Below are positions 36 through 12,846 of a stretch of DNA of 12,846 bases, piece after piece. The stretch spans positions 1 through 12,846 of the forward strand of contig JACMKG010000133.1 of NCBI GenBank assembly GCA_014380255.1, written 5' to 3'. Position 1 is the first letter of the stretch; each line of letters opens with the position of its first letter. Below the pieces are notes generated by a model, which had not been told where the DNA came from, searched no databases, and saw only the letters and a list, made by a program, of their open reading frames with translations. This DNA is from Prolixibacteraceae bacterium (GTDB taxonomy: Bacteria > Bacteroidota > Bacteroidia > Bacteroidales > Prolixibacteraceae). Made by a program: the position numbers and the translations under genes.

Positions 36-100
36 TACGATCTGTACTGTATCTGTATTGTATCTGTACGAATAGGGAAATAATAGTACAGTTACAGTAC
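36..100. repeat. Small 11-bp-phased repeat with inverted arms
   Basis: The heptamer ATCTGTA occurs at 40-46, 51-57 and 62-68, exactly 11 bp apart. The stretch 44-58 (GTACTGTATCTGTAT) pairs with 86-100 as an inverted repeat, 13 of 15 positions complementary, around a 27-nt spacer. The element lies about 135 bp beyond the stop codon of the minus-strand M1 peptidase gene. The period equals that of the larger element at 11984-12162, and both contain CAATAC/GTATTG cores. I infer that they are the same kind of element. The left window edge prevents judging whether it is complete. Confidence 0.6.
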
Positions 101-7242: not shown

Positions 7243-8328
7243 TTACCCTAATCGTATCTCAACTTTTTTTTCCATATAATCACTAAATGATTCTGTAGCT
7301 TTTGTAATTAATTGTTCTTTAATGATAACGTGAGGCCTGAAATAATCTGTTTCAATGAGTATATGATCTTTCTTTTCCGTCTTTTTCCAAAGGCCACTTA
7401 TTTGTCCGTTTACCAAAATAACTGGTCTGAAAATACCGTTGCTCGAAATGGCTTTTTTGTGATCTTCCATGGTAATCGAAGCGCTGCGGTTTTTGTAGCT
7501 GATCAGAAATTCATCAAATGCAGGAAGCAGATAGACAGAATCAGTAAGCTCGGGGGTTTTTATATCCAATTCCGAAAGCCAGTATGTATCTGATGCTATC
7601 TTAACTGAAACAAGGTCGTTTTTAACACTTTCCAGCGCTTTTCTGCCATCTGCTGCCGGTAAGCCCGACCACCATAAAAAATCGGCAAGAGTAGCTGGTC
7701 CATGACTCGAAAAGTAACTTTTTGCAAGCTTTGCCAACGCTTCTTCTTTGGTCAGTGTTTTTTTTACCGGAACTCGTTTACTCAGCAGTGCGTAAGTTTG
7801 CTTTTTCCCTTTAAGTGGACCACTGCAAAGGACTCCGTCAATTTCTGCACGAAGCATGATATGAGAGGCGCGCTGAAGGTCTGTTGGAATACCTGCCGAA
7901 TCAAGTGCATGAAGCAATTCTTCACGGGTCAAGGATTGATCTTCCCGGGCATTGATCGCATCTTCAATGACCAAATAACTCGTATTGACCAGCAGTTCGG
8001 TAATCCCCAATTCCCGATGCCTGGAATTTAAAACTGATTTAATCTGAGGTGCGGTAAGTTGTAGCATCCAGTAAATGTCATCAGCCGACACGAAATGCCA
8101 GGTTGGACGCATAAGGTGTGTACGGAGAATTTCACCTTGATTAAAGGCAGATTCAATCTGTGTTTCAGTCATATGTGGCATTCGTATGCCAATCGCCCAT
8201 TTGGCCTGGTTGTAATCCTGTGCCTGCATAGCGCCCATCCATGCAACAAGTTCTTTGGGTGCCTGAAACATGGATGTTGCCAATTGTTGGTTCTTTAAGC
8301 GAATAGTGGAAATCTCTTTTGAATCCAT
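7243..8328 (-). CDS. AlkZ/HTH_42-type winged-helix DNA-binding protein
   Basis: The 361-residue product belongs by eye to the COG3214 / HTH_42 family, which includes DNA glycosylases such as AlkZ and YcaQ that act on alkylated or cross-linked DNA. The conserved N-terminal block MGAMQAQDYNQAKWAIGIR (residues 31-49) contains Gln35-Ala-Gln37, which fits the Q-x-Q catalytic motif described for AlkZ as I recall it. HLMRPTWHFVSADDIYWML (about 71-89) is the second family signature. The length is typical, with winged-helix modules expected across residues 90-300. There is no signal peptide, so it is cytoplasmic. It stands alone, 160 bp before the YtxH-like operon and divergent from GH31. Whether it is a glycosylase or only a DNA-binding relative cannot be decided here. 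Confidence 0.8.
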   Translation of the reverse strand: MDSKEISTIRLKNQQLATSMFQAPKELVAWMGAMQAQDYNQAKWAIGIRMPHMTETQIESAFNQGEILRTHLMRPTWHFVSADDIYWMLQLTAPQIKSVLNSRHRELGITELLVNTSYLVIEDAINAREDQSLTREELLHALDSAGIPTDLQRASHIMLRAEIDGVLCSGPLKGKKQTYALLSKRVPVKKTLTKEEALAKLAKSYFSSHGPATLADFLWWSGLPAADGRKALESVKNDLVSVKIASDTYWLSELDIKTPELTDSVYLLPAFDEFLISYKNRSASITMEDHKKAISSNGIFRPVILVNGQISGLWKKTEKKDHILIETDYFRPHVIIKEQLITKATESFSDYMEKKVEIRLG

Positions 8329-8434: not shown

Positions 8435-8543
8435 CTAGAAATTGTAATAAGTACATTAAATATATAGTTGCTAATAATCAATGGGTTCTACTAATTAACG
8501 CAAGTTGTCAGATATACGAATTGAAAGAGTTATTGAAAAAGGC

Positions 8544-8648
8544 GGCTAGCGGCTAGCGGCTGGCAAGAAATGCTTCGATCAGAGGCAATGGATGCTGATA
8601 GCGGCTGAGTTTTGCCAGTAGCCAGCAACCAATAGCCAGTAGCTAGCA
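8544..8648. repeat. 7-bp-unit repeat arranged as two opposed arrays
   Basis: The left array has three heptads: GGCTAGC (8544-8550), GGCTAGC (8551-8557) and GGCTGGC (8558-8564). The right array has five, in the complementary sense: GCCAGTA, GCCAGCA, ACCAATA, GCCAGTA and GCTAGCA (8614-8648). TGGCAA (8561-8566) pairs with TTGCCA (8612-8617), and the outer heptads are self-complementary GCTAGC. The 49 nt between contain another GCGGCTGAG. The arrays lie in the predicted 5' leader of the GH31 mRNA, so an RNA hairpin could form there. Heptanucleotide intergenic repeats are known in filamentous cyanobacteria (STRR) without a settled function. Confidence 0.65.
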
Positions 8649-8694: not shown

Positions 8695-11538
8695 ATGAAT
8701 AAATTACTGTTTTTATCTTTTGCCGTGCTGTTACTGTCGGCATGCTCGCAAAAAGTCTGGGAAAAGACTTCCAATGGAGTGCTTATTTACCCAACTTCCC
8801 ACCCTGCAAACGGAGCTAAAACCATTGGCCTCGAGGTGGTGAATGATCAAATTATTAGGGTGGTTGCATCTCCCGCTAATGAGCTTACAAAATCTAAAAG
8901 CCTGACCGTGGTCGACAGTTTAGGCAAACAGGTAAGCTTTGAGGTCGTTGAACAGAACGATAGCATCATCCTGTCTACTTCCAGGCTGAAAGCCAAAGTA
9001 TCCATGGCTACAGGAGATGTGAAGTTCTATGATGAGAACAACAGGCTCATTTTACAAGAACGCGAAACGGGCAAATCATTTACTCCCATTACGGTGGAAG
9101 GAACCGATGGATATACTTTTTCACAGGTCTTTGAATCTCCTGATGATGAAGCGTTCTACGGTCTGGGCCAGCACCAGTCGGATGAATTCAACTACAAGGG
9201 CCTCAACGAAAGCCTATTCCAATACAATACCAAGGTGTCGGTTCCCTTTGTGGTGTCCAGTAAAAACTATGGTATCTTATGGGATAATTACTCGCTTACC
9301 AAGTTTGGCGACCCGCGTGATTATGCTGAAATGAGCCAGTTCCAATTGTTTAATGCCAAAGGCGAAAAGGGTGGCCTGTCTGCTCTTTACTACACGAATT
9401 CGGATACTAACCAGGTATATGCCAATCGCGATGAATCGGCTATCGACTACGAAAATCTCACTACCATTAAAAACTTCCCCGAAGGGTTCCAGTTCAATAA
9501 TTCAACCATCGTTTGGAAAGGAATGATTGAACCCAATGAAAGCGGGGAATATCATTTCAAGCTTTACTATGCCGGTTATACCAAAGTGTTTATCAACGAT
9601 GAATTAATTGTTCCTGAGCGCTGGCGCACGGCATGGAATCCAAACACCTATAAGTTCACCAAAGAATTGGAACAGGGCAAACGGTATTCGATCCGTTTGG
9701 AATGGAAACCTGATGGGGGCACTTCTTATATTGGACTTAAAGCACTTAGTCCCAGACCTGAAGCCGACCAGAATGCCTTAACGCTGACTTCGGAAATGGG
9801 CGATCAGATTGATTATTATTTTATCCGTGGAAATAACATCGATGAGGTGATAAAAGGATATCGGGAGGTGACGGGCAAAGCGCAGATCATGCCTAAATGG
9901 GCCATGGGTTACTGGCAAAGCCGTGAACGGTATAAATCGGCTGATGAACTGGTGAACGTGGTGAAAGAATACCGCAAACGTCAGATTCCACTGGACAACA
10001 TCGTGCTTGACTGGAGTTACTGGCCCACTGAATCATGGGGATCTCATGAATTCGATACGGCTCATTTTGCTGATCCTGCCGGAATGGTAAGCCAGGTACA
10101 CGATCTGAATGCCAAGATCATGATTTCCGTATGGCCTAAATTTTATCATACCACCGATCATTACAAGGAATTTGATTCCAAGGGATGGATGTATCAGCAA
10201 GCCGTTAAGGACAGTGTGCGCGACTGGATCGGCAAAGGTTACATTGGCTCATTCTACGATGCTTACAATCCGGATGCAAGGAAACTGTTCTGGAACCAGA
10301 TTCATGAACATTTGTATACCAAAGGGTTTGACGCCTGGTGGATGGATGCCTCTGAACCGGATATCCTTTCCAATGCCAGTATCGAATACCGCAAGAAACT
10401 CTCTACCCCGACAGCACTCGGCCCGTCAACCAAATATTTCAATGCCTATGCCCTGATGAACGCCGATGCCATCTACAACGGACAACGCGGCGTTGATCCC
10501 AACAAGCGGGTATTTCTGCTCACACGCTCCGGTTTTGCAGGACTGCAACGCTATTCAACAGCTACCTGGAGTGGTGATATCGGAACACGCTGGGAAGATA
10601 TGAAAGCGCAGATTTCGGCTGGCTTGAACTTTGCCATTTCCGGAATTCCATACTGGACCATGGATATTGGTGGTTTCTGTGTGGAAAACCGTTATGCCAA
10701 TGCCAAAGAAGGTTCGGAAGATATGAATGAATGGCGCGAGCTGAATAACCGCTGGTACCAGTTTGGCGCTTTTTGCCCCCTTTTTCGCAGCCACGGCCAA
10801 TATCCTTACAGGGAGATATATAATATCGCCCCTGAAAATCATCCTGCCTATAAAAGCATGGTATACGTCAACAAACTGCGTTACCGCTTGATGCCTTATA
10901 TTTATTCTTTGGCAGGAATGACCCATTTTGATGATTACACCATTATGCGGGCCCTGATTATGGATTTTAACGGAGATACCAGAGTCAACAACATTGGCGA
11001 CCAGTACATGTTCGGGCCATCGTTGATGGTAGCGCCCGTGTATCAGTACAAGGCTACCTCACGCGAAGTGTATTTCCCCGAGGCCAACGGCTGGTATGAC
11101 TTTTATACCGGAAAATATGTTGATGGAGGACAAAAAGCGGAAGTGAGCGCTCCTTATGAAAGAATGCCTTTATTTGTGAAGGAAGGTTCCATTGTGCCTT
11201 TTGGTCCTGAAATCCAGTATGCTTCTGAAAAGCAGGCTGATGTGATTACCCTCTATGTATATACGGGGAAAGATGCTCAGTTTACCCTGTATGAGGATGA
11301 AGGAGTGAATTACAATTACGAACAGGGCAAATACGCTACCATCCCGCTTACCTACGATGAAGAAACCGGCAAACTGACCATTGGTGATGTAAAAGGAGCT
11401 TTTGATGGAATGCTTACCTCACGCACCTTCAACATCGTATGGGTAGTCAAAGACAAACCAGTTGGTTATGACTTAAGTAAAGCGGCAGATACTACCGTTG
11501 CCTATACAGGTAAAATGGTGGAAGTGACCAGGAATTAA
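8695..11538 (+). CDS. GH31 family lipoprotein with PA14 insert, probable alpha-xylosidase
   Basis: A retaining glycoside hydrolase of family 31, on a lipid anchor: the signal ends LLLSAC with Cys17. Order: N-terminal beta-sandwich (about 20-225), PA14 insert (about 226-352), TIM barrel (about 385-740), C-terminal beta domains (about 740-947). Asp551 in WWMDASEPD is the expected nucleophile and Asp628 in WSGDIG the acid/base. The length and the PA14 insert match alpha-xylosidases such as BoGH31A of the Bacteroides ovatus xyloglucan locus and Cellvibrio CjXyl31A. It should release alpha-xylose from xyloglucan oligosaccharides, although another alpha-linked substrate is possible. No SusC/SusD, regulator or other hydrolase lies next to it, so it is not in a visible polysaccharide utilization locus. 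It has its own promoter (8404-8434), repeat-bearing leader and terminator. The ATG at 8695 is supported by the signal peptide. Confidence 0.9.
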   Translation: MNKLLFLSFAVLLLSACSQKVWEKTSNGVLIYPTSHPANGAKTIGLEVVNDQIIRVVASPANELTKSKSLTVVDSLGKQVSFEVVEQNDSIILSTSRLKAKVSMATGDVKFYDENNRLILQERETGKSFTPITVEGTDGYTFSQVFESPDDEAFYGLGQHQSDEFNYKGLNESLFQYNTKVSVPFVVSSKNYGILWDNYSLTKFGDPRDYAEMSQFQLFNAKGEKGGLSALYYTNSDTNQVYANRDESAIDYENLTTIKNFPEGFQFNNSTIVWKGMIEPNESGEYHFKLYYAGYTKVFINDELIVPERWRTAWNPNTYKFTKELEQGKRYSIRLEWKPDGGTSYIGLKALSPRPEADQNALTLTSEMGDQIDYYFIRGNNIDEVIKGYREVTGKAQIMPKWAMGYWQSRERYKSADELVNVVKEYRKRQIPLDNIVLDWSYWPTESWGSHEFDTAHFADPAGMVSQVHDLNAKIMISVWPKFYHTTDHYKEFDSKGWMYQQAVKDSVRDWIGKGYIGSFYDAYNPDARKLFWNQIHEHLYTKGFDAWWMDASEPDILSNASIEYRKKLSTPTALGPSTKYFNAYALMNADAIYNGQRGVDPNKRVFLLTRSGFAGLQRYSTATWSGDIGTRWEDMKAQISAGLNFAISGIPYWTMDIGGFCVENRYANAKEGSEDMNEWRELNNRWYQFGAFCPLFRSHGQYPYREIYNIAPENHPAYKSMVYVNKLRYRLMPYIYSLAGMTHFDDYTIMRALIMDFNGDTRVNNIGDQYMFGPSLMVAPVYQYKATSREVYFPEANGWYDFYTGKYVDGGQKAEVSAPYERMPLFVKEGSIVPFGPEIQYASEKQADVITLYVYTGKDAQFTLYEDEGVNYNYEQGKYATIPLTYDEETGKLTIGDVKGAFDGMLTSRTFNIVWVVKDKPVGYDLSKAADTTVAYTGKMVEVTRN

Positions 11539-11603: not shown

Positions 11604-11983
11604 ATAAGCATTTGAAATTGTGTTTAGAAATTAATAAGACATCAATCAATGTTGTTTATTGAGGGAATTTAGAAATACAAGAATGTTTAGATCCATCATT
11701 CAATAGTTGCAGTTGAAAAGGAATCATTAAAATAGGACAGGATGGGTCTTTTTAAAAATCTCACTTTAAAAGAACATCTTAGTAACTGGACATAACCCTG
11801 ATATGCTAATCTTATGTATCTTATTCTTAGATAAATAAGATTGTGTTTAAGGGGTGTTTGTTCGGTTGCTAAGATCAAAGAAACAGAAATTAAGATTTTT
11901 AAATGTAGATGTTCTTGGACTAACTTCTTTGGTCTTATGCTTTTTCTGTTTGTTAAAAGATTAACTAAACGTTGTTGATAAAT
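11604..11983. other. Gene-free AT-rich stretch with a 14-bp hairpin
   Basis: No convincing gene was seen. The clearest structure is a stem at 11808-11821 / 11829-11842 (AATCTTATGTATCT with AGATAAATAAGATT, one mismatch) with a 7-nt loop and no following T-tract. AAGAACATCT at 11770-11779 is inverted as AGATGTTCTT at 11907-11916. No promoter matching the phylum consensus was found, so an RNA gene here is unsupported. Confidence 0.4.
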
Positions 11984-12162
11984 CAATACGAACCCAATAT
12001 AAAGTCAATACGCATTCAATGGTTAATGGGTAGTTTATAGGTAGATTATAGGTAGCTTATAGGTACATTATAGGTTCATGAACCTATAATGTACCTATAA
12101 GCTACCCATAAAGAACCTGTTTACCATTGACTCTGTATTGACTTTGTATTGAATTTCTATTG
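11984..12162. repeat. Long inverted repeat built from exact 11-bp units
   Basis: The left arm holds eight consecutive 11-bp units from 11984 to 12071. Four start with CAAT (11984, 11995, 12006, 12017); the next four have GGGTAG/AGGTA starts and TTAT ends (12028, 12039, 12050, 12061). The right arm holds seven units (12086-12162) that are the reverse complements in the same order, ending in four ...ATTG units. The centre is AGGTTCA|TGAACCT at 12072-12085. Bases 12051-12106 form a perfect 56-bp palindrome without a loop. The outer units pair imperfectly, and the left arm has one extra unit. No gap or partial unit breaks the 11-bp phase. The element lies between the terminators of two convergent genes, so it is probably not routinely transcribed. 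Function unknown. Confidence 0.9.
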
Positions 12163-12198
12163 AAATAACACGATACAAATGGAAACAGTTACTGGGCC

Positions 12199-12283: not shown

Positions 12284-12323
12284 AAATAACAAAGGCAGCC
12301 CAATAGAGCTGCCTTTGTTATTT
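12284..12323 (-). terminator. Strong hairpin terminator of transketolase
   Basis: A perfect 16-bp stem AAATAACAAAGGCAGC (12284-12299) / GCTGCCTTTGTTATTT (12308-12323) encloses an 8-nt loop, 76 bp below the transketolase stop. The AT-rich outer half supplies a U-rich 3' side in both directions, so it can act bidirectionally and would also stop plus-strand transcripts. Confidence 0.8.
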
Positions 12324-12399
12324 AGAATATTATTAGATCAACTTTTCCAAAGATTAATAAACAGTAACTAAACTTTGGAAATGTTCTTTAGATCGAAAG

Positions 12400-12846
12400 T
12401 TACGCCAGTATTTCCTTTACCTGGTTGTAAACATTCTGGGCAGTGAAGCCCAGTTTCTCGTCCAGTACCACATAGGGAGCTGAATATCCAAAAGATTCCA
12501 ACCCGAATACCTTGCCATCAGCCCCTACCAAACCTTCCAGGTTAACAGGCAACCCGGCTGTCAGGCCGAATTTCTTGACTCCCGCGGGCAATACGCTTTG
12601 CTGGTATTCTTTGTTTTGACTGCGGAACAATCCTTCGGAAGGAACTGAAACGATCCGACATTTGATGCCTTCTTTTTCAAGTAACTCAGCGCCTTCAACC
12701 AATGTGGCTACTTCCGAGCCGCTGGCCAGTAAGATCACATCCGGAGTACCGGCTGTATCGGTTACCACATAGGCTCCCATAGCTGCCTGCTGTGCTTCGG
12801 CGTAACGGTTTTCTGTGGAAGGAAGGTTTTTTATATTCTGGCGTGA
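12400..12846 (-). CDS. tkt: Transketolase, C-terminal part (runs off the right edge)
   Basis: The frame stays open from the stop at 12400 to the window end, giving at least 148 residues; the internal ATG at 12780 is not the real start. Upstream of that Met the frame reads SRQNIKNLPSTENRYAEAQQ, the expected transketolase linker. The visible part is the C-terminal third domain: DVILLASGSEVATLVEGAELL, a GIKCRIVSVPSEGLFRSQ strand-turn, SFGYSAPYVVLDEKLGFTAQNV and the C-terminal helix. The thiamine-diphosphate-binding domains lie outside the window. Transketolase moves two-carbon units between sugar phosphates in the pentose phosphate pathway, in the cytoplasm. It could accept pentose carbon from xylose released by the neighbouring GH31 enzyme, but the two genes are convergent and not an operon. 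Confidence 0.93.
   Translation of the reverse strand, partial: SRQNIKNLPSTENRYAEAQQAAMGAYVVTDTAGTPDVILLASGSEVATLVEGAELLEKEGIKCRIVSVPSEGLFRSQNKEYQQSVLPAGVKKFGLTAGLPVNLEGLVGADGKVFGLESFGYSAPYVVLDEKLGFTAQNVYNQVKEILA

Follow-up and report, generated by a model that had tools for sequence, protein, structure and literature searches.

The window analysed here, a 12,846-bp stretch of DNA from a Prolixibacteraceae bacterium, carries an 11-bp-phased palindromic array (hereafter, the element) between a GH31 family glycosidase gene and the C-terminal part of a transketolase gene (tkt), which converge on it as stated in the first-pass annotation of this DNA (Table 1). The starts of the element and of a second, decayed array are 11,954 bp apart in the lag scan, and 28 bases of the decayed array (41–68) match another family of arrays in the relative G012 (loci L122 and L166). 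An AlkZ-like DNA glycosylase gene (7243–8328) lies two genes to the left of the element. Upstream of the GH31 gene, at 8542–8643, lie opposed arrays of two 7-bp units, GCGGCTA and GCCAGTA; 7-bp arrays are common also in G012, in G020 and in loci of other Bacteroidota. On the contigs of G012 and G020 they are about as common as 11-bp arrays, and we regard them as a separate matter.

Table 1. Positions of the element, its parts and its neighbours in the window
Feature	Position	Strand	Basis or remark
Second, decayed 11-bp array (ATCTGTACTGT units)	40..94	.	Lag scan
GH31 family glycosidase, left neighbour	8695..11538	+	ORF and protein domain scan
11-bp-phased palindromic array (element)	11984..12162	.	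Lag scan, homology, palindrome search
Left outer units CAATACGAACC, CAATATAAAGT, CAATACGCATT, CAATGGTTAAT	11984..12027	.	CAATGGTTAAT is the transition unit
Left inner units GGGTAGTTTAT, AGGTAGATTAT, AGGTAGCTTAT, AGGTACATTAT	12028..12071	.	
Perfect 56-bp palindrome	12051..12106	.	Centre GGTTCATGAACC at 12073-12084
Right inner units and transition: CCTATAATGTA, CCTATAAGCTA, CCCATAAAGAA, CCTGTTTACCA	12083..12126	.	
Right outer units TTGACTCTGTA, TTGACTTTGTA, TTGAATTTCTA and start of next	12127..12162	.	
GC-rich hairpin AAATAACAAAGGCAGC/GCTGCCTTTGTTATTT	12284..12323	.	Likely tkt terminator; outside element
Second tkt-side hairpin	12340..12385	.	Outside element
Transketolase C-terminal part, right neighbour	12400..12846	-	ORF and protein domain scan

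The element consists of four outer units starting with CAAT, inner units of the AGGTANNTTAT type and the centre GGTTCATGAACC, followed by the mirror image. The CAAT starts reported at 11984, 11995, 12006 and 12017 are all present, and the 11-bp rows continue to 12162. The phase itself is real: identity at lag 11 over 11984–12162 was 0.667, compared with at most 0.417 in 20,000 shuffles, and when lags 3–39 were scanned, lag 11 (0.67) was followed by lag 22 (0.53), the next best being lag 18 (0.41). No perfect palindrome is longer than the one of exactly 56 bp that had been noticed by inspection, and the arms measured from its centre are 95 and 84 bp long, a difference of one 11-bp unit. The earlier count of fifteen exact units needs correction, as the 179 bp comprise 16 units plus three bases and 'exact' is true of the length of the units, not of their sequence. 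Complementarity between the arms is 77% over 93 nt, a slide of one arm by one unit pairs slightly better (0.773) than the chosen axis (0.744), and both strands fold more stably than 200 shuffles (z = −14.7 and −14.2).

The GH31 gene of the window shares 80–86% identity with its thirteen nearest loci and lies near Prolixibacteraceae. In one relative, Prolixibacteraceae bacterium UBA10471 (G012, the genome of locus L012), the element gave 37 matches at 18 places, indicating that it is a multi-copy and not a single-copy sequence there. Homology with these copies falls inside 11978–12180 and most copies span about 11980–12168; this array alone, with no tail, is the part common to the window and most G012 copies, which by eye read (CAATACNAAGT)n as outer units, a transition, (GGGTACATTAC)n as inner units, the centre TTCATGAA and the mirror image. 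Searches of 17 genomes besides G012 with the element gave no match in 13 and one short weak match in each of the other four, and a G012 copy used as query against 140 genomes of the family found G012 itself and three short matches in G065 only. No lag-11 run was present in 80 loci of relatives (1.01 Mb). Some relatives with the same gene order have no array, as judged by eye at four GH31–tkt junctions (L008, L010, L011 and L013), while the class is found elsewhere in the family; one outcome that the first-pass annotation had named as refuting its reading has thus occurred in part. Taken together, these junctions and the 80 loci indicate that the class has a patchy distribution and was not present ancestrally at the GH31–tkt junction. 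Downstream of GH31 in L008, L010 and L013 there is a different hairpin, CACCCTGAAC...GTTCAGCATGAC, and no 11-bp array there.

The 11-bp phase is not confined to one sequence. In G020, G079 and G082, which belong to the same family, about 40 places each were found (the best 40 candidates per search), mostly with unrelated units that keep the 11-bp phase and the inverted symmetry. Contigs C1–C20 of G012 (170,527 bases) contain ten lag-11 runs, corresponding to eight elements after arms were joined across N gaps, none of which belongs to the family of the window; TTCGAAGGTAG, GGAGTAGGGTT, CTGTAATGTAT and GTAGATAATTC are among their units, and in some cases the array is direct, with no second arm visible. 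At least five further unit types occur in G020, among them ACCTTGTGTGT, GGTATGACAGT with CGAATTTGTTA, and GTACGAGATAA. Two families were recognized in G079, a (GGGTAACCAAA) and b (GGACAAACCAT), and G082 has TCCGTCCTTAA together with TCCATGGTTTG, the latter resembling family b. G079 and G082 have an inner unit in common, and the window has one family in common with G012. The arrays are roughly 80–260 bp long. Thus, dispersed palindromic arrays form a class that is defined by strict 11-bp phase and inverted symmetry, not by sequence, and array-rich genomes hold several unit families each, mostly their own. The proposal that phase counts more than sequence is borne out by the unrelated units that keep it in several genomes.

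Strictness of the phase was judged by the steps between motif cores and not by a pairwise indel count, which is incomplete (411 1-bp gaps over 300 pairs of whole arrays). In G020, the core GGTA[TC]GA recurred at 172 steps of 11, 11 of 22, one of 33 and one of 34, and CG[AT]ATTTG at 210 steps of 11, 34 of 22 and one of 33, with none at 10 or 12 for either core. AAGGGTA in G079 gave 63 steps of 11 and four of 22, and GGTA[CG]AT in G012 gave 60 and three; the outer core TCAATA of G012 gave 52 steps of 11, 13 of 22 and 11 at other distances. With looser cores, 431 steps measured 11 or 22; off phase were four short steps (6, 7, 10 and 14) and some longer breaks. Across 40 G020 copies, outer and inner units kept one register at 38 of 39 left-hand joints (outer to inner) and at all 39 right-hand joints (inner to outer); the distance across the centre was 15 in 30 of the 40 copies and 26 in four. 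The left tail anchor was in register in 18 of 19 readable copies, the right anchor being less clear. Unrelated units in one register are not expected from tandem duplication of one unit. Over 800 kb of G079, a scan of lags found 24 runs at lag 11, 18 at lag 22 and zero to four at ten other lags.

These observations bear on ordinary tandem-repeat slippage, or an assembly artefact, in which the phase would be unconstrained. Such an origin would accommodate the change of unit number by whole units and the N gaps inside arrays in some G012 scaffolds. It is made highly improbable by the same period in unrelated sequences and genomes, by two unit types in one register, by the lag-11 excess in G079 and by the even spacing described below; moreover, such arrays were found repeatedly, in several genomes and also in a contig of 4.47 Mb, so the assembly artefact that the first-pass annotation had allowed for is unlikely. 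In G012 loci L125, L128, L133, L134 and L137, scaffold N gaps lie inside or beside palindromes, and this placement suggests that assembly breaks at these palindromes and that draft genomes undercount arrays. A common repeat of about 130 bp with inverted symmetry lies beside 11-bp elements at 12364–12498 of L130 and 4548–4682 of L134.

A simple pattern was also counted across genomes. GTAx5 at spacing 11 matched in 14 of the 140 family genomes; at control spacing 10 it matched in ten, with one locus each, and at control spacing 12 in 38, above spacing 11. Twelve being a multiple of three, this higher number probably reflects coding repeats. G009, G010 and G021 are among the family members in which the pattern had no match, although the counts at the three spacings agree on this only in part. 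G012, G020 and G079 had no forward or reverse match at spacing 10 or 12. The reversed control at spacing 11 was high in G079 (53), G080 (78), G082 (16) and a few other genomes; we read this excess as arrays with other units, which were seen directly in G079 and G082, not in G080. In a wider draw, spacing 11 matched in 21 of 395 genomes of the phylum, including G012, and the 20 loci viewed were by eye mostly direct arrays. Four genomes of this draw (G213, G484, G441 and G520) have GTATAGATAGT-type 11-bp direct arrays in common, and in G484 one such run by eye exceeds 20 units. Among viral sequences, IMG/VR contigs L081–L100 except L089 form one phage family by eye, in which an ORF that we take to resemble the start of a small terminase is preceded by two to four TTATAGGTAAC-type 11-bp units; these units are possibly a packaging site. 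L101 and L089 carry other short 11-bp arrays.

Pairing across the axis was compared with pairing after slides of one unit. On average, the axis paired better in G020 (0.847 versus 0.719 and 0.751; best in 20 of 36 copies), in G012 (0.784 versus 0.657 and 0.666; best in 10 of 12) and in G079 (0.606 versus 0.53 and 0.481; best in six of the seven loci, out of 30, that passed the length filter). The inverted symmetry could act in DNA or in RNA. A-form double-stranded RNA has about 11 bp per turn, and a long RNA hairpin (a 3' UTR structure, a terminator or dsRNA) would explain the phase in this way and agree with the strong stems predicted for both strands. However, in 34 tail-oriented G020 copies, 2,449 of 2,703 aligned arm positions pair, and the mismatches comprise 30 G.U and 30 A.C; the fold energy was lower on the oriented strand in 14 of the 34 copies (P = 0.41). 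Equal numbers of G.U and A.C and equal folding of the strands give no sign of selection on one RNA, and RNA function was rejected as the main reading after these comparisons. In addition, no Rfam family matched at gathering score anywhere in the window.

Gene orientation led to the same view. Of 12 runs in the first 400 kb of G079, three lie between convergent, four between tandem and three between divergent genes, and the 42 G020 loci comprise five convergent, 17 tandem and 12 divergent cases, the rest in both genomes being at edges or inside crude ORF calls; these classes were compared with intergenic space by eye. The special tie to convergent genes suggested by the window is therefore not upheld, since arrays also lie between tandem and divergent genes. 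Their presence between divergent genes in relatives also led us to reject the terminator reading and counts against RNA hairpins in general, which we consider very unlikely. The stem of the window element is AT-rich without a T run, unlike the GC-rich stem and U run of an intrinsic terminator. The earlier preference for a DNA-level role over a terminator or an RNA role thus gains from both the lack of an RNA mismatch signature and the occurrence of arrays whatever the orientation of the flanking genes.

Arrays of all families together are spaced more evenly than chance in G079 and G020. The scan of 0–800 kb of G079, which was blind to family and from which two weak runs (80131 and 355872) out of 24 were dropped, gave 22 arrays of two families with gaps of 35.7 ± 8.0 kb and a coefficient of variation (CV) of 0.22, compared with a mean CV of 0.96 and no value below 0.43 in 20,000 random placements. 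When the two weak runs were kept, the CV was 0.34, still under all draws, and the minimum gap was not unusual (P = 0.08). Families a and b alternate irregularly in this one series. Genome-wide BLAST located at least 79 places in G079 (at least 40 of a and at least 39 of b), with a minimum gap of 24.5 kb and a CV of 0.48 (lowest draw, 0.67); the BLAST maps comprise the best 40 of 74 candidates in G020, of 77 and 57 in G079 and of 48 in G082, and the series are incomplete. Among the best 40 candidates of each family, a alone was not even by CV (0.90, P = 0.35), with one gap of 618 kb, though it was even by its minimum gap of 29.8 kb; b alone was even (CV 0.43); and b avoided a, the nearest pair being 26.0 kb apart (one set rotated against the other: minimum, P = 0.00015; median, P = 0.0047). 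On three G020 contigs (C2, C76 and C80, picked for length and for holding matches), 28 arrays had a mean gap of 19.1 kb and a CV of 0.52 (P = 0.0007), whereas the 7-bp arrays found as a control with the same scanner on the same contigs were not even (CV 1.25, or 1.07 with neighbours merged). In G082, 38 places of one family, among the best 40 of 48 candidates, had a minimum gap of 27.6 kb (P = 0.0004). Null placements were uniform over the chromosome, including genic DNA, and the length of G082 was set to 5.2 Mb. Random sequential parking with an exclusion of 25–27 kb reproduces the G079 spacing (CV 0.20–0.21), whose regularity exceeds that of a simple hard-core gas (0.36, P = 0.03).

Conservation of individual sites was also assessed. 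At G020 locus L286, which came into the comparison because it was fetched around an array, the tkt end is 87.6% identical; similar hairpins come next, and about 105 bp beyond them stands an 11-bp palindrome whose units are unrelated, so that in both the window and L286 such a palindrome lies about 105–120 bp past the tkt-side hairpin. Other relatives with tkt near GH31 have no array at tkt. Positional conservation, promising at tkt, was not borne out across all testable flanks: an array was present within 1.5 kb of 4 of 27 orthologous gene ends, against an expectation of 8.1% (P = 0.17), and the weak G079 run at 80131 accounts for two of these four. The genes that flank two G082 sites (L394 and L405) lie side by side in G079, where no array is present within 4 kb.

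Alignment of 29 G020 copies revealed conserved tails of about 75 bp outside the arrays, the two tails being by eye largely unlike each other, which suggests that the copies have spread. The arrays could then be selfish elements of the foldback type, that is, non-autonomous palindromes held about 25 kb apart by the target exclusion of a shared transposition machine; Mu and Tn7 immunity are examples of target exclusion. The number of places (at least 40 for one G020 family, and at least 40 for family a and 39 for family b in G079), the conserved tails, the lack of significant site conservation together with the array-free counterparts of L394 and L405, and a spacing like that of random sequential parking all agree with this explanation. 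Set against it are the exclusion in G079 between families with no sequence in common and the common array without a tail in the window copy and G012. In addition, Y1 transposases, the one type tested, numbered one in G079, zero in G080, two in G082 and six each in G012 and G020, compared with 2–14 in seven other genomes (ten in G003 and 14 in G041), indicating that they are not raised with arrays; amplification of the REP/RAYT kind is therefore unsupported. Exclusion without function would suffice for the spacing, given its fit to random parking with 25–27 kb exclusion, and we hold such exclusion without a host function to be nearly as likely as the DNA-site reading set out below.

The long near-palindromes and AT-rich units would also suit a cruciform that extrudes under negative supercoiling and absorbs the turns of its interval, and such a supercoil buffer needs no dedicated protein; the presence of about one array per interval, between genes of every orientation, agrees with it. 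It leaves unexplained the strict 11-bp phase and the two unit types in one register, and only 7 of the 24 lag-11 runs in G079 coincide with a palindrome in which 27 or more of 35 stem positions pair. SbcD is part of a nuclease that cuts long hairpins. It scored above the cut-off in G020, G079, G080 and G082 and in five of seven other genomes, with no match in the draft G012; its presence in G020, G079 and G082 speaks against the buffer, which we consider unlikely. Loss of SbcCD as the reason that the palindromes are tolerated is likewise unsupported by these SbcD matches. A cruciform map of Escherichia coli exists (PMC6060812).

Among the matches listed in a search of the open-access literature and few subscription journals, no description of 11-bp-phased dispersed or evenly spaced palindromes was found. 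Foldback elements of eukaryotes have inverted repeats built of short tandem repeats, and Tm1 is reported as one of them. Long inverted repeats of tandem units and dispersed copies of one sequence family are the points of likeness with the arrays, which differ in their even spacing and in a period fixed at 11 bp across unrelated families. REPs, in the available text of PMC3733652, are palindromes of 20–40 bp with a GTAG or CGTC tag, associated with RAYT transposases in some prokaryotic genomes, and they resemble the arrays in being dispersed palindromic repeats in many copies. Unlike REPs, the arrays are about 80–260 bp long with an 11-bp period, free sequence, even spacing and no Y1 excess, and by eye no tetranucleotide tag is common to their families. 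The heptamer arrays described in the accessible part of PMC4679880, such as TAACTGA, are intergenic arrays of short units like those studied here, mostly direct, some of them in Bacteroidetes, and upstream of start codons in the main species; their unit is 7 bp, and the 7-bp arrays of G020 are not evenly spaced. In Porphyromonas gingivalis, a 77-bp inverted repeat at one regulatory locus is bound by the HU protein PG0121 (PMC3969353, as far as its available text goes); it resembles the element as an inverted repeat of very great length, studied as DNA for the proteins that it binds, and 77 equals 7 x 11. The element also differs from a CRISPR array in consisting of contiguous 11-bp units without spacers, and no Cas domain was found in the eight window proteins scanned.

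The closest parallel to the period itself is parC of plasmid R1, in which ParR requires two 11-bp repeats for binding, parC sequence and repeat spacing varying among families (PMC9426499, from the part available). Both parC and the arrays consist of 11-bp direct repeats in arrays. Unlike parC, one centromere per plasmid beside parM, the arrays are many palindromic sites on the chromosome; no par genes were found among the window proteins, and the neighbours of the array are the GH31 and transketolase genes (in the window only).

Four features have to be explained together, namely a geometry fixed at 11 bp while the sequence is free, two arms in opposition, the absence of a strand preference and, across families, a single copy per interval, and a DNA site for a protein polymer fits them best. 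We therefore propose, with a probability of about 0.4, that the arrays are DNA-level sites that spread in the foldback style, are kept at about one per interval and may be where a putative protein with an 11-bp pitch assembles. Copies would spread like foldback-type elements, and about one would be retained per chromosomal interval (about 36 kb in G079 and about 19 kb in G020). With unrelated unit types in one phase and different families in one series, the feature that matters for function would be an 11-bp geometry on a pair of opposed arms. The likeliest mechanism would be a multimeric putative DNA-binding protein that assembles cooperatively, each 11-bp unit taking one protomer and each arm one filament, in a geometry perhaps like that of ParR on the 11-bp repeats of R1 parC, and the assembled array may serve as the anchor or boundary of a chromosomal loop or supercoiling domain. 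B-DNA has 10.5 bp per turn. Repeats of 11.0 bp drift against this, so that binding on one face would need supercoiled or untwisted DNA or a protein with a pitch of 11. Further points against the proposal are the lack of significant site conservation, the absence of arrays in G079 at the counterparts of L394 and L405, the array-free relatives that have the neighbourhood of the window, the uneven CV of family a alone and the fit of the spacing to plain parking. The even spacing is observed, and the anchoring of loops or domains is inferred; the earlier suggestion of chromosome organisation is thus supported by the spacing in G079, G020 and G082, and is still put conditionally here. A somewhat more doubtful variant is a lattice maintained by the host, in which evenly spaced sites recognized by their geometry and not by sequence would mark loop or supercoiling domains, with one site per 20–36 kb, and in which the units would change from species to species but the phase and the even spacing would last.

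If the arrays are selfish, an exclusion of about 25 kb between families with no sequence in common would be an unexplained form of target exclusion. If they are instead DNA-level sites for a protein assembly, regular chromosomal sites set by helical phase and symmetry and not by sequence would constitute a genome element of a new kind, and, with the sites, their spacing and apparently array-free related genomes known, they would offer a direct handle on how bacterial loop or supercoiling domains are set.
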